A stretch of DNA of 64,000 nucleotides, taken from the NCBI RefSeq assembly GCF_020037125.1, contig NZ_JAIQDG010000015.1:124001-188000 (forward strand). Reading direction: 5' to 3'. This stretch comes from Myxococcus sp. RHSTA-1-4. Lineage in GTDB: Bacteria > Myxococcota > Myxococcia > Myxococcales > Myxococcaceae. Shown piece by piece: positions 12,163-15,914 of the stretch. Position numbers and translations under genes: made by a program. The notes under the pieces were generated by a model. The model had not been told where the DNA came from. It made no database searches and saw nothing but the letters and a program-made list of their open reading frames with translations. Each line of letters opens with the position of its first letter. Positions within the stretch are counted from its first letter, which is position 1.

Positions 12163-12678
12163 TCAGCCGTTTGGCCGGGGAGGCGCCTGGGGACCGGAGG
12201 GAGGCTCCACCGGGGCGATGCTGACGGACTGGACGTGCAGGGCGTCACCGACGCGAGTGACGACGAAGGTGGCGCGGGACTTCCGCACGTGCTCGTCCCG
12301 GTGCTGGATGAGGACGAACACCCCTGGAGCGATGGGGCGGATGGCCTCGACGTCCGTCCGCATGGTGAACATCTCTGGGCGTCCCTTCTCCACGAGCCAC
12401 TGGAGCTGCGCCTGGAGCGCGGCGCGGCCCTTGAGCCAGGTACCGGCGCGGTTCACGAAGTCGGCGTCCTCGGCGAAGTGAGCGAGGTACGCCGGCACGT
12501 CGCGTTGCTTCCAGCGCAGGTCGAGGTCGGTCATGAGGGCCCGGAGGTCCTTCTCGTCCTCGGGGGACAGCGTCAATGGTGTCTGGGACATGGTGGCGGG
12601 GCGGGAGGCCGCGCACGCCTGGGACGGAACGGCGCCCAGGAGCAGCAGGCCAAGCATGAGCAGTGGCTTCGGGTTCAT
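12163..12678 (-). CDS. Exported NTF2-like (SnoaL/DUF4440-type) protein
   Basis: A 171-residue protein with a signal peptide (residues 1-24, LLMLGLLLLGAVPS) and one NTF2-like domain. The typical helix-strand pattern is present: DLRALMTDLDLRWKQRDVPAYLAHFAEDADFVNRAGTWLKGRAAL, followed by the beta-rich half ending ALHVQSVSIAPV. Such domains bind small ligands or act as hydrolases or accessory subunits. The C-terminus is proline-rich. Nothing indicates its ligand. It lies upstream of the M20 gene on the same strand with 77 bp between them. Confidence 0.7.
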   Translation of the reverse strand: MNPKPLLMLGLLLLGAVPSQACAASRPATMSQTPLTLSPEDEKDLRALMTDLDLRWKQRDVPAYLAHFAEDADFVNRAGTWLKGRAALQAQLQWLVEKGRPEMFTMRTDVEAIRPIAPGVFVLIQHRDEHVRKSRATFVVTRVGDALHVQSVSIAPVEPPSGPQAPPRPNG

Positions 12679-12866
12679 GCCCAGGCTACGTGGCCCCGTG
12701 TTGCCGCATTGCCGGCCCTGCCGTGAAGAAGTGTGAAGCGTCAAGCCATGGGCTTCGAGCCCTCCGGCGTCACGCGGTGCCGGCCGCCCTTGTCGGAATG
12801 CTTTCGCGCGTGAACGACTCCCGGGCCTGGGTTGACGCCCTCCGGAGGCGGGCGTCTGCTGGACGC

Positions 12867-14186
12867 ATGTCCGAACACACTCCTCCCACGGTGACCGCCG
12901 ATACCGTGGCCCGCCCGGTGGGGCTCACGGAGCGGCTCGTCCTGCTGGACGCGCTGCGAGGCTTCGCGCTGTTGGGCGTGTTCCTCTCCAACAGCATCAC
13001 CTGGTTCAGCGGCCGGACACTGCTGCCGCGCGAGCAGGCCCAGGCGCTGGGTGCGCCGCTCCTGGAGGTCGTCGTCGGCTCGGCCTATCAGTTCCTGGTG
13101 AACCAGAAGTTCATCACCCTCTTCTCGTTCCTCTTCGGACTGGGCTTCTCCATCCAGATGACCCGGGCCGAGGCCCGGGGCAGCTCCGTCGTCCCGCTCT
13201 ATACGCGGCGGCTGCTCGTCCTGCTGGGCATCGGGCTGGTGCACCTCTTCGCCATCTGGGTGGGCGACATCCTCCACACGTACGCGACGGTGGGCTTCCT
13301 GTTGCTGCTGTTCCGCGCCCGCTCCAACCGGGCGGTGCTGGCCTGGGCGGTGGGGGTGATGCTGACGATGACGTTCCTGCTGCCCGCCTTGCAGCGCTAC
13401 GGGCCGGTGTGGCTGCATGGCGCGGAGGCCGCGGCGGAGCTGGCGAATGCCACCCGGGCCGAGGCCGCCGCCCAGCGGGCCCGATTCCTGGCGGCGCTCT
13501 CCAGCGACTCGCTGTGGACGGCGCAGGCGGGCAACGGGAGATACTTCTTCGACACGTTCCTCCGCGTGGACCGCATCAAGTGGATGGGCTTCATCCTCGC
13601 CCGCTTCCTCCTGGGCCTGTTCGCGGGGCGGCTCCTGTTGTTGCAGGAGGTGGAGCGTCACCGGCACCTGCATCGCCGGCTGGTGGCCTGGGGGTTGGGG
13701 GCGGGCGTGCTCATCAATGGCGCCGGCCTGTTGATGTTCCGGCTGCGCGCCATGGGGTACCTGAACACGAAGGACAGCGTCGGGGCGTTCTTCCTGAACG
13801 CCGCGCAGGAGCTGGGCTACCTGGCGATGGCAGCGGGGTACGTGTCCCTCTTCGCGCTGCTGTTCCAGCGCGTGCGCTGGCAGCGGGTGCTGGGCGTGCT
13901 GGGGCCGGTGGGGCGCATGGCGCTCAGCCATTACCTGCTGCAGTCCATCGTGAGCGTGTGCATCTACAACGGCTGGGGACTGGGGCTCGTCGGCAAGCTG
14001 CCGTCCTCGCGCGTGGTCGCCATCTGCGTGGGCATCTTCGCCGTGCAGGTGGCGCTCAGTCACTGGTGGCTGGCGCGCTTCCGCTTCGGCCCGGCCGAGT
14101 GGCTCTGGCGCTCACTGACCTACGGCCGTGCCCAGCCCATGCGCCTGTCGGCGCGGGGGGGAACGGCGGGGGCGCCGGCGTCCTGA
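12867..14186 (+). CDS. DUF418 (YeiB-like) integral membrane protein
   Basis: A 439-residue multi-pass membrane protein. The family opening LLDALRGFALLGVFLSNS is at about residues 27-45, and the protein ends with the DUF418 block RMALSHYLLQSIVSVCIYNGWGLGLVG and WLARFRFGPAEWLWRSLTYG. About ten hydrophobic helices alternate with short loops. The family is distantly related to acyltransferase-3 proteins, and a transport or acyl-transfer role is only suspected. The ATG at 12867 was preferred because the sequence upstream has no membrane-protein character, although a longer in-frame start exists at 12798. Confidence 0.8.
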   Translation: MSEHTPPTVTADTVARPVGLTERLVLLDALRGFALLGVFLSNSITWFSGRTLLPREQAQALGAPLLEVVVGSAYQFLVNQKFITLFSFLFGLGFSIQMTRAEARGSSVVPLYTRRLLVLLGIGLVHLFAIWVGDILHTYATVGFLLLLFRARSNRAVLAWAVGVMLTMTFLLPALQRYGPVWLHGAEAAAELANATRAEAAAQRARFLAALSSDSLWTAQAGNGRYFFDTFLRVDRIKWMGFILARFLLGLFAGRLLLLQEVERHRHLHRRLVAWGLGAGVLINGAGLLMFRLRAMGYLNTKDSVGAFFLNAAQELGYLAMAAGYVSLFALLFQRVRWQRVLGVLGPVGRMALSHYLLQSIVSVCIYNGWGLGLVGKLPSSRVVAICVGIFAVQVALSHWWLARFRFGPAEWLWRSLTYGRAQPMRLSARGGTAGAPAS

Positions 14187-14233
14187 GGCCGGCCCTCCGC
14201 TCCGGTGTGTCTCCCGGCGGAGGAGTGAAAGGC

Positions 14234-14379
14234 TTGAGCGCACCCGAGTGAACAAGCCATTTTGGGGTCTGATTAAGAGTCAGATGCCGATCCCTCGGCG
14301 GCGCCCCCGTGGAGTGGAGGCGGACGGAGTCGAACCGTCTTCTGGAGCGTGTAGGACCTCTTCGGCCGGGTGCGCTCAA
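14234..14379 (-). ncRNA. Circularly permuted tRNA-like RNA (anticodon CUU), candidate
   Basis: Read on the minus strand, the element has the 3' half of a tRNA before the 5' half. The 3' half is a T-arm GACGG-TTCGACT-CCGTC (14339-14323) then acceptor strand CGCCTCC (14322-14316) and discriminator A (14315). Six bases later comes the 5' half: acceptor strand GGGGGCG (14308-14302), a D-arm GCCG-AGGGAT-CGGC (14299-14286) and an anticodon arm TCTGA-CTCTTAA-TCAGA (14284-14268) with anticodon CTT. The acceptor strands pair over all 7 positions, with a G3-U70 wobble. The outer ends carry a 13-bp inverted repeat TTGAGCGCACCCG. Oddities are CC at positions 8-9, a 6-nt D-loop and no encoded CCA. It could also be a tRNA-derived relic. 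Confidence 0.5.
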
Positions 14380-14426
14380 TCCAGAGTGACGGTGCGGTGA
14401 CGGCGTTCCTGACAGGAGGCCGGCGC

Positions 14427-15812
14427 TCAGAGTGACTTCAGGAACGCGAGCAGCGCCTCCCGGTCAGCGTGGGGCAGGCGCACGTAGCGCTCCCTCGCGG
14501 GCGCGGCCTCGCCTCCGTGCCACAGCACGGCCTCCTCGTGGTTCCGCGCCCGGCCGTCGTGCAGGAAGCGGGTGTGGCCGTTGACTGTCTCCACCAGCCC
14601 GATTCCCCACAGCGGCGGAGTGCGCCACTCCCGCCCGCTGGCCTGCCCGTCCGGGCGGCCATCCGCGAGTCCCTCGCCCAGGTCGTGCAGCAGCAGGTCC
14701 GTGTACGGGTAGATTCTCTGGTGTGACAGCTCTGGGAGGCCGGGCACGTCGCCTGTCTCGAAGGCGCTGTCCACGTGACAGCCGGAGCAGCCGATGGCGC
14801 GGAACACCGCCTTGCCTCGCAGCACCGCCGGAGCGTCCCAGTCACGCCGCTTGGGAACGGCCACCAGCCGCATGTAGAAGAGCAGGCGCTCCAGCTCCTG
14901 GGGCGTCACCTCGGGCGTGCCTGTGCCGTCTGCGTTGGCATTCGCCGGCTGGGGATAGAGCGAGGTGGTGAGCCCCATGTCCGCGGATAGCGCGTGGGCG
15001 ATCTGCTGGCGCAGCGAGGGCTGGTTGGCCTTCCACCCGAAGCGTCCCAGCTTCGTCTCTCCGGTCTCCACATCCCTCACCCGGTTCGGACGTCCGGAGA
15101 TGCCGTCCTGGTTGGCGTCGTCCGGGTCCGCGCGGGTGAGGAGGGCCTCCTCGGGAATCGCGTCGAGCAGCCCCATTCCGAAGTTGGCCGGGGAGACCCG
15201 TGGAGAGAAGGGCGCGTCCGCACCCAGCGGGCCCTGTACCAGCGACTTGAACGTGTAGCGTGGCCGAAGCAGCGTGAAGGACTCGCCGGTGGCGAACTCG
15301 CCAGGGAGCTCGTCGTACGCCACGGCGACGGTGCCCTCGGGCTCACTCCCCTGGAGGGCCTGGAGGTCGAGCTGCTCGCCGTAGCTCGGATGCGGCCCCT
15401 GCCCTCCGGGGGCGCTGAGCTGGAAGACGAGGGAGACGGGGGCCTCGTCGGGTGATGCCGGGGGACGCCCTCGCCCGTCCTTCACATGGCACGTCATGCA
15501 GGAGGATGCGCTGAAGAGCGGGCCCACGAGCACGGGGCTCTCTTTCACCTCTCGCCAGTCGCGGCCAAAGAGCTGCTTGCTCTCGTAGAAGTCCGGCCAC
15601 CGCTCCAGCGGCATGTTCATGAGCGAGCGGCCGAAGGCATTCACCCCCGTGTCCGCCACCGTGGTGGCGCCTCCCGACAGCTCCTCAGCGGGTTCGGCCG
15701 CCGATGGCAGGTCCCCCAGCTCCAGCAGGGGAGGGCGCTCCGTGTCGACGCACATGGCGGTGAGCACGAGGGCTCCGGCCGCAACGCCTGGAAGGTACCG
15801 CCGTCCGCGCAT
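14427..15812 (-). CDS. Di-heme cytochrome c-type oxidoreductase (DUF1111 family)
   Basis: A 461-residue exported protein with two c-type heme sites, CMTCH at residues 105-109 and CSGCH at residues 342-346. The N-terminal hydrophobic helix ends LVLTAMC, so it may be a lipoprotein or be cleaved by signal peptidase I. The sequence between the hemes (NAFGRSLMNMPLERW, LLDAIPEEALLTRADPDDANQDGISG, RFGWKANQPSLRQQ) matches the di-heme oxidoreductase family once called DUF1111, near cytochrome c peroxidases. It should act in periplasmic electron transfer, possibly with the downstream lipoprotein region. The ATG has an AGGAG site 8 nt upstream. Confidence 0.85.
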   Translation of the reverse strand: MRGRRYLPGVAAGALVLTAMCVDTERPPLLELGDLPSAAEPAEELSGGATTVADTGVNAFGRSLMNMPLERWPDFYESKQLFGRDWREVKESPVLVGPLFSASSCMTCHVKDGRGRPPASPDEAPVSLVFQLSAPGGQGPHPSYGEQLDLQALQGSEPEGTVAVAYDELPGEFATGESFTLLRPRYTFKSLVQGPLGADAPFSPRVSPANFGMGLLDAIPEEALLTRADPDDANQDGISGRPNRVRDVETGETKLGRFGWKANQPSLRQQIAHALSADMGLTTSLYPQPANANADGTGTPEVTPQELERLLFYMRLVAVPKRRDWDAPAVLRGKAVFRAIGCSGCHVDSAFETGDVPGLPELSHQRIYPYTDLLLHDLGEGLADGRPDGQASGREWRTPPLWGIGLVETVNGHTRFLHDGRARNHEEAVLWHGGEAAPARERYVRLPHADREALLAFLKSL

Positions 15813-15914
15813 CGGGAGGTCTCCTGGAGGTCCGTGGGAAAAACCGGGGTGGGCGCCGGACAGGACGTCATTCCTGCCCGGCGCACCGCCTGTGCGGGGC
15901 ACAGGCGGACGGGA

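Follow-up and report, generated by a model that had tools for sequence, protein, structure and literature searches.

The 64,000-nucleotide stretch of Myxococcus sp. RHSTA-1-4 DNA analysed here (the window) carries a tRNA cloverleaf in circularly permuted order, encoded on the minus strand (14379-14234) and seated on a stem made by both ends of the RNA. We consider it likely that this element is a non-coding RNA gene that represents a new and divergent bacterial Y RNA branch, with a Ro60-type protein as its partner, a tRNA-like effector module and ECF control. Its structure, covariation, distribution, co-occurrence and gene neighbourhood were established by computation, and the permuted tRNA shape on a stem, taken together with a co-occurring Ro60-like protein, makes it look like a new Y RNA branch rather than a protein-making tRNA. 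Inside the stem, the order along the minus strand is T arm, acceptor stem, D arm and anticodon arm. The features are as follows:

14388-14413, minus strand: promoter-like motif GTCAGG-N16-CGTC (ECF-sigma type), directly upstream of the element
14367-14379, minus strand: outer stem, 5' strand TTGAGCGCACCCG, 13 bp with CGGGTGCGCTCAA; double changes at 7 of 9 modelled pairs of the helix
14355-14363, minus strand: inner stem, 5' strand GAAGAGGTC, 8 of 9 pairs with GGCTTGTTC; 92.9% of cells paired, weakest at three pairs
14347-14354, minus strand: conserved single strand CTACACGC, from the conservation lines of alignment A1
14323-14339, minus strand: T arm GACGG-TTCGACT-CCGTC, from sequence and covariation
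14302-14322, minus strand: whole acceptor stem, double changes at 7 of 7 pairs
14322-14316, minus strand: acceptor 3' strand CGCCTCC
14315, minus strand: A at the acceptor end
14314-14309, minus strand: acceptor loop CTCCAC, six bases
14308-14302, minus strand: acceptor 5' strand GGGGGCG, 7 of 7 pairs, G3-U70 among these
14286-14299, minus strand: D arm, double changes at 4 of 4 pairs
14268-14284, minus strand: anticodon arm TCTGA-CTCTTAA-TCAGA, loop CTCTTAA, anticodon CTT
14250-14258, minus strand: inner stem, 3' strand GGCTTGTTC, pairing with 14363-14355
14234-14246, minus strand: outer stem, 3' strand CGGGTGCGCTCAA, pairing with 14379-14367

A conserved GCC/ACT internal loop separates the outer from the inner helix, and the conserved ACTCGGG lies in 14249-14247 plus the 3' strand of the outer stem (14234-14246). 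The preliminary description had proposed two permuted tRNA halves with a six-base gap between them and all seven acceptor pairs formed, the cloverleaf being closed by a 13-bp inverted-repeat helix (14379-14367 with 14246-14234), and all of this holds on the minus strand. It had overlooked the inner helix and the conserved single strand, and it left unnamed the bacterial Y RNAs, which are a known permuted tRNA-like RNA.

The element folds with an energy of -69.7 kcal/mol (z -4.38), which none of 200 shuffles equalled. ARAGORN found no tRNA in the window, a tmRNA search of it was likewise empty, and no Rfam model reached its gathering score there; with its two halves rejoined, the element is called by ARAGORN as tRNA-Lys(ctt). 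The flanks are two convergent genes, one for a DUF418 protein (12663-14186, plus strand) and one for a di-haem oxidoreductase (14427-15902, minus strand), and scans of 14150-14460 for a sigma-70 promoter and an intrinsic terminator found neither. A phage or mobile element carrying a piece of tRNA was considered as the source and rejected on account of these two neighbours and of the phage collection, which gave only 36-nt T-arm matches in Cellulophaga phages (E 0.5).

The expectation that the element would recur in relatives, with compensatory changes in its pairs, was upheld. A DNA search with the element gave a match in 39 of 96 genomes of the family, and the 3' motif CACTCGGGYGC was present in all 30 loci taken for alignment. 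The MAFFT alignment of these loci was the source of a covariance model, R1, which matches 80 of the 96 family genomes with at most seven matches each; in 75 the match has E<1e-6, and the weak matches within the 80 fall in five genomes (G036-G039 and G046, E 2e-4 to 1e-3). At class level 82 of 147 genomes are matched, every genome of genus g1 having at least three matches, and the carriers found by an exact-pattern scan include records of Pyxidicoccus, Corallococcus, Citreicoccus and Archangium. The window genome has six R1 matches, the sixth of which (C57:575251-575329, 35.3 bits) overlaps two adjacent ordinary tRNA genes, so that we count five copies there; this check for tRNA-gene overlap covered the matches of the window genome.

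RNAalifold predicted 31 pairs on the 30-copy MAFFT alignment, with double changes at 15 of them. Over 55 aligned copies and 39 pairs, 96.0% are standard pairs (75.2% in shuffles and 38.3-50.3% in slid controls) and 406 cells carry double changes (a mean of 103 in shuffles and 26-63 in slid controls), in an alignment that was fitted to the model and so leans towards the structure; the 30-copy alignment serves as the independent check. The 55 copies come from 45 sources picked to limit near-duplicates, with antisense and partial matches dropped by a limit of 1e-8. The two-part end stem is the best conserved region of the RNA. The outer stem is retained also in copies that lack the anticodon arm or the T arm, so that the stem is constant and the tRNA module varies.

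Of 48 parsed copies (7 of the 55 were unparsed), 45 have T and acceptor stems that add up to 12 or 13 bp, mostly split as 5+7 or 5+8; L019 has 4+8, and three copies from genus g6 have 4+9. After rejoining, which could not be done for 5 of the 55, ARAGORN reads 38 of 50 copies as tRNA, whereas it recognises no copy among the 55 in their native order and no tRNA among 1000 shuffles; the count is identical with and without an added CCA. The element was also considered as a set of chance hairpins and as a tRNA fossil; both readings were rejected because of the covariation and because no shuffled rejoined copy was read as tRNA.

The window copy and most others have a closed 7-nt anticodon loop. Among 37 readable loops there are 24 different anticodons, and positions 34-36 are nearly random (entropies of 1.77-1.84 bits). 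The frame around them has a pyrimidine at position 32 in 35 loops, U at position 33 in 30 and a purine at position 37 in 34, counts to which ARAGORN's own rules may contribute by favouring U33 and R37; unfiltered loops look similar by eye, uncounted. The anticodon arm is absent from at least four copies (L083:8093-8253, L087:6615-6775, L090:7219-7376 and L091:8874-9029) and the T arm from L132:4009, L011:1309, L014:1701 and L135:5734. The earlier suggestion of a permuted tRNA therefore stands in one part, because the cloverleaf is complete and in permuted order, and fails in the other: given the spread of anticodons over the 37 copies and the existence of an ordinary tRNA-Lys(CTT) gene besides the permuted element, it is probably not an elongator tRNA and decoding is unlikely, and the missing arms and the Ro60-like link also speak against such a tRNA.

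The same evidence bears on the idea of a functional two-piece permuted tRNA, in which RNase P together with 3' processing would cut open the acceptor loop in the manner of permuted two-piece tmRNA, with charging of the acceptor end and with the long stem holding the halves together as a variable arm. We judge this quite improbable, since the triplets are near-random among close relatives while the arms persist, with TTA and TCA included, since some copies lack the anticodon arm and others the T arm, and since ordinary tRNA-Lys(CTT) is present. In its favour are the acceptor and T stems of about 12 bp with a canonical T loop, the Y32-U33 of most loops and the open acceptor-end loops of 4-14 nt; the missing CCA is no objection, because only 14 of 58 distinct tRNA genes in the fetched loci of the window genome encode it. 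The T arm and acceptor also match permuted tmRNA: the only Rfam matches of the window copy are the tmRNA models RF04321 (24.9 bits, gathering score 47) and RF01851 (24.7 bits, gathering score 70), over no more than 38-39 nt.

Several copies are unusual in other ways. Rejoined L022:1487-1660 and L088:7300-7453 are assigned the anticodons TTA (stop) and TCA (selenocysteine/stop) by ARAGORN, and by eye L022, L024, L028, L040 and L041 have an extra GGGG...CCCC after the anticodon arm, like the hairpin of a class II variable arm. L011:1309-1436 and L014:1701-1828 are degenerate T-arm-less copies lying right beside a full copy, and L083:8260-8361 (G000, contig C33) is a third, incomplete permuted module between two complete ones. 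On the same contig, Rfam reads C33:68169-68328 as a tRNA in normal order (49.7 bits), built from one module's 5' half and the 3' half of the module that follows. Elsewhere in that genome, unusual tRNA genes are densely packed at G000:C56:79638-81211 (L168), where 14 Rfam tRNA matches fall within 1.6 kb; this array lies some 14.5 kb downstream from the gene for the Ro60-like protein, and a second cluster is at C53:140727-146621.

The RNA copies are adjoined by a gene for a 590-aa protein, P0001, with a helical half and a C-terminal vWA domain. P0001 is found in 74 of 96 family genomes and 75 of 147 class genomes, and all 75 also match R1, including G137 of another family; seven class genomes match R1 without P0001, six of them weakly and G008 at 4.3e-8. 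In 30 of 30 loci of close genera, the P0001 gene has an RNA copy within 1.5 kb; among 16 stretches taken mostly from more distant genera, only 4 have one near the gene.

Aligned by hhalign with nine TROVE (Ro60) proteins, the full-length P0001 profile, which is shallow (Neff 1.5), gave a probability of 97.3% over 346 columns. Because P0001 and Ro60 both have a vWA domain, the helical half alone was used as a test: with the vWA domain removed, the N-terminal half of the profile scored 44.9 against TROVE (P 2.3e-5, probability 76.1%, 175 collinear columns). As controls, six column shuffles scored 12.0-22.9 and the reversed profile 13.4, and seven further vWA proteins from the same genome gave 10.7-15.8 with their N-terminal parts (a set of 10 loci, with L147 and L148 unparsed and L150, P0001 itself, kept apart). 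When the profile was replaced by a single P0001 sequence, the score was 27.7 and the probability just 6.3%. Pfam TROVE does not recognise P0001, PDB sequence searches with it returned vWA domains and no Ro60, and the plasmid collection gave vWA matches only. An AlphaFold model made from five near-identical Corallococcus sequences was poor (pLDDT 49.7), with vWA domains as its only Foldseek matches; it suggests a helix-rich N-terminal half and a vWA domain, and nothing further. Like Ro60 and Rsr, P0001 combines a helical N-terminal half with a C-terminal vWA domain in a collinear profile alignment, and unlike them it has no Pfam TROVE match, is about 21% identical in the alignment and leaves about 190 N-terminal residues unaligned. 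On these profile comparisons we regard P0001 as a putative and probable divergent Ro60.

Standard Ro60 is rare in these bacteria, with Pfam TROVE matching 1 of 96 family genomes at E<=0.001 and 2 of 195 phylum genomes at E<=1e-10. The recognisable Ro60 of one family genome (L051, G033) has Rsr 2nvo as its best PDB match (E 1.1e-25), and Myxococcus phage Mx1 (L144) encodes a TROVE protein 45.7% identical to it.

In close genera the cluster runs RNA, metallophosphoesterase (P0004), RNA, vWA protein and a further protein, P0003, and genes for an ECF sigma factor and a zf-HC2 anti-sigma factor lie divergently beside it. P0004 matches Pfam Metallophos above the cut-off and the NCBIfam ApaH/PrpE and Pnkp phosphatase region models below it. 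The strict GTCAGG-N16-CGTC motif occurs once in the 64-kb window, just upstream of the element, with 0.57 matches expected by chance. It precedes 22 of 55 copies, and the relaxed form TCAGG-N15-17-CGTC precedes 36 of 55; several of the motif-less copies are second copies within a cluster. Of four loci inspected, three (L082, L084 and L085) have the strict motif facing the sigma gene as well, and L091 does not. Its presence both before the RNA copies and facing the sigma gene makes control of the RNA set by this ECF sigma factor likely. The cluster was also considered as a defence system and this was rejected, PADLOC giving nothing meaningful for five cluster proteins beyond one weak HTH match to the sigma factor.

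The link between RNA and protein bears on whether the tRNA shape arose by convergence, in a decoy or regulatory RNA unrelated to Ro60 with the vWA protein a mere neighbour that has another task. The shallow profile on which the Ro60 kinship of the protein rests would be compatible with this, as would the poor fit of the outer stem to the YrlA stem, but the RNA is present in every genome with P0001 and lies within 1.5 kb of its gene in all 30 close loci, and we hold convergence to be highly improbable.

YrlA, a bacterial Y RNA, is the nearest known kind to the element. As described in PMC8394870, YrlA combines a stem with a tRNA-like domain that includes D, T and acceptor arms, is modified by DusA and TruB, is bound by Rsr/Ro60 and PNPase, and mimics tRNA. 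Two sets of loci were tested with the YrlA model RF02553, which matches 3 of 7 and 8 of 11 of them at 27-45.6 bits; all scores stay below the gathering score of 69, L119 being the best at 45.6 bits. The second copy of the window genome (L092) scores 43.0 bits, and the window copy gave no match to this model up to E 5. In these alignments the match is carried by the tRNA-like module, and the outer stem fits poorly. The identical permuted order of T arm, acceptor and D arm, and YrlA being the best Rfam match of many copies, might suggest an ordinary YrlA-type Y RNA that falls below the Rfam threshold and is bound by a standard Ro60. With TROVE found in a single family genome, and with a closed anticodon arm and an exit of the RNA ends from the variable region in most copies, unlike RF02553, this is the least probable of the explanations that we weighed.

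Under the favoured explanation, a divergent Y RNA branch, the two-part stem of paired RNA ends would dock on the divergent Ro60-type protein with its helical half and vWA domain, and the other end of the RNA would display a complete permuted tRNA as an effector module recognisable to tRNA-handling factors. This module could steer PNPase or another nuclease, by analogy with known Ro RNPs, or alternatively serve as bait for tRNA-damaging enzymes, and the dedicated ECF sigma factor would probably switch the set on within an RNA-stress response. The RNA-protein binding and the role of the tRNA module are here inferred only.

A decoy role against an anticodon nuclease has been suggested for YrlA (PMC7790460), and the closed loop, canonical framing and free triplets of the present RNAs fit the bait idea better than YrlA does. 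In its fullest form, which we put forward tentatively and think rather unlikely, the genome would encode a panel of permuted tRNA baits carried on Ro60-type particles, with varied anticodons for nucleases that cut there. A canonical frame (Y32-U33, R37) around a free anticodon would let the copies offer many nuclease targets. Since the long stem clamps the RNA ends, the protein would retain both fragments after cleavage in the anticodon loop, so that the particle could act as a sensor or sink of cleavage, with the Pnkp/ApaH-like phosphatase as repair arm and the ECF sigma factor as alarm arm.

If the assignment to a new Y RNA branch is right, Ro60/Y RNA biology would reach a bacterial group in which Ro60 sequence searches are nearly empty, and the point of permutation would shift from the anticodon stem to the variable region. 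We know of no earlier Y RNA with a whole tRNA, anticodon arm included. Free variation of the anticodon in a conserved frame turns the possible role of Y RNAs as decoys or sensors for tRNA-damaging enzymes into a testable question. We found no literature on this RNA or on myxobacterial Y RNAs, although the main YrlA papers may hold an earlier mention.

Like YrlA, the RNA joins a stem formed by its ends to a permuted module of T arm, acceptor and D arm. In most copies here the anticodon arm is closed and the RNA ends exit from the variable region, unlike the YrlA model RF02553, in which the stem runs directly into a helix that replaces the anticodon arm. The varying anticodons, the up to seven matches per genome and the near absence of standard Ro60 are further differences from YrlA. 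The setting recalls the Rsr-YrlA-RtcBA RNA repair operons described in PMC7790460, in that a Ro-type protein, a Y RNA and an RNA-repair-like enzyme stand in one regulated cluster, but here an ECF sigma/anti-sigma pair takes the place of RtcR, and a Pnkp/ApaH-like phosphatase domain that of RtcA/RtcB. In the circularly permuted tRNA genes of algae and archaea, the 3' half likewise precedes the 5' half of a full cloverleaf (PMC3978253). Those genes yield normal tRNAs through a bulge-helix-bulge and circularisation, whereas here the RNA ends form a long conserved stem and the anticodon is unconserved. With permuted tmRNA (RF04321, RF01851) the element shares the T arm, acceptor and short loop; tmRNA is without an anticodon arm. 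Permuted tRNA genes and permuted tmRNA have already been described (PMC3978253, PMC10085705), permuted tRNA-like Y RNAs are also known, and the element is probably a new form of the Y RNA kind.
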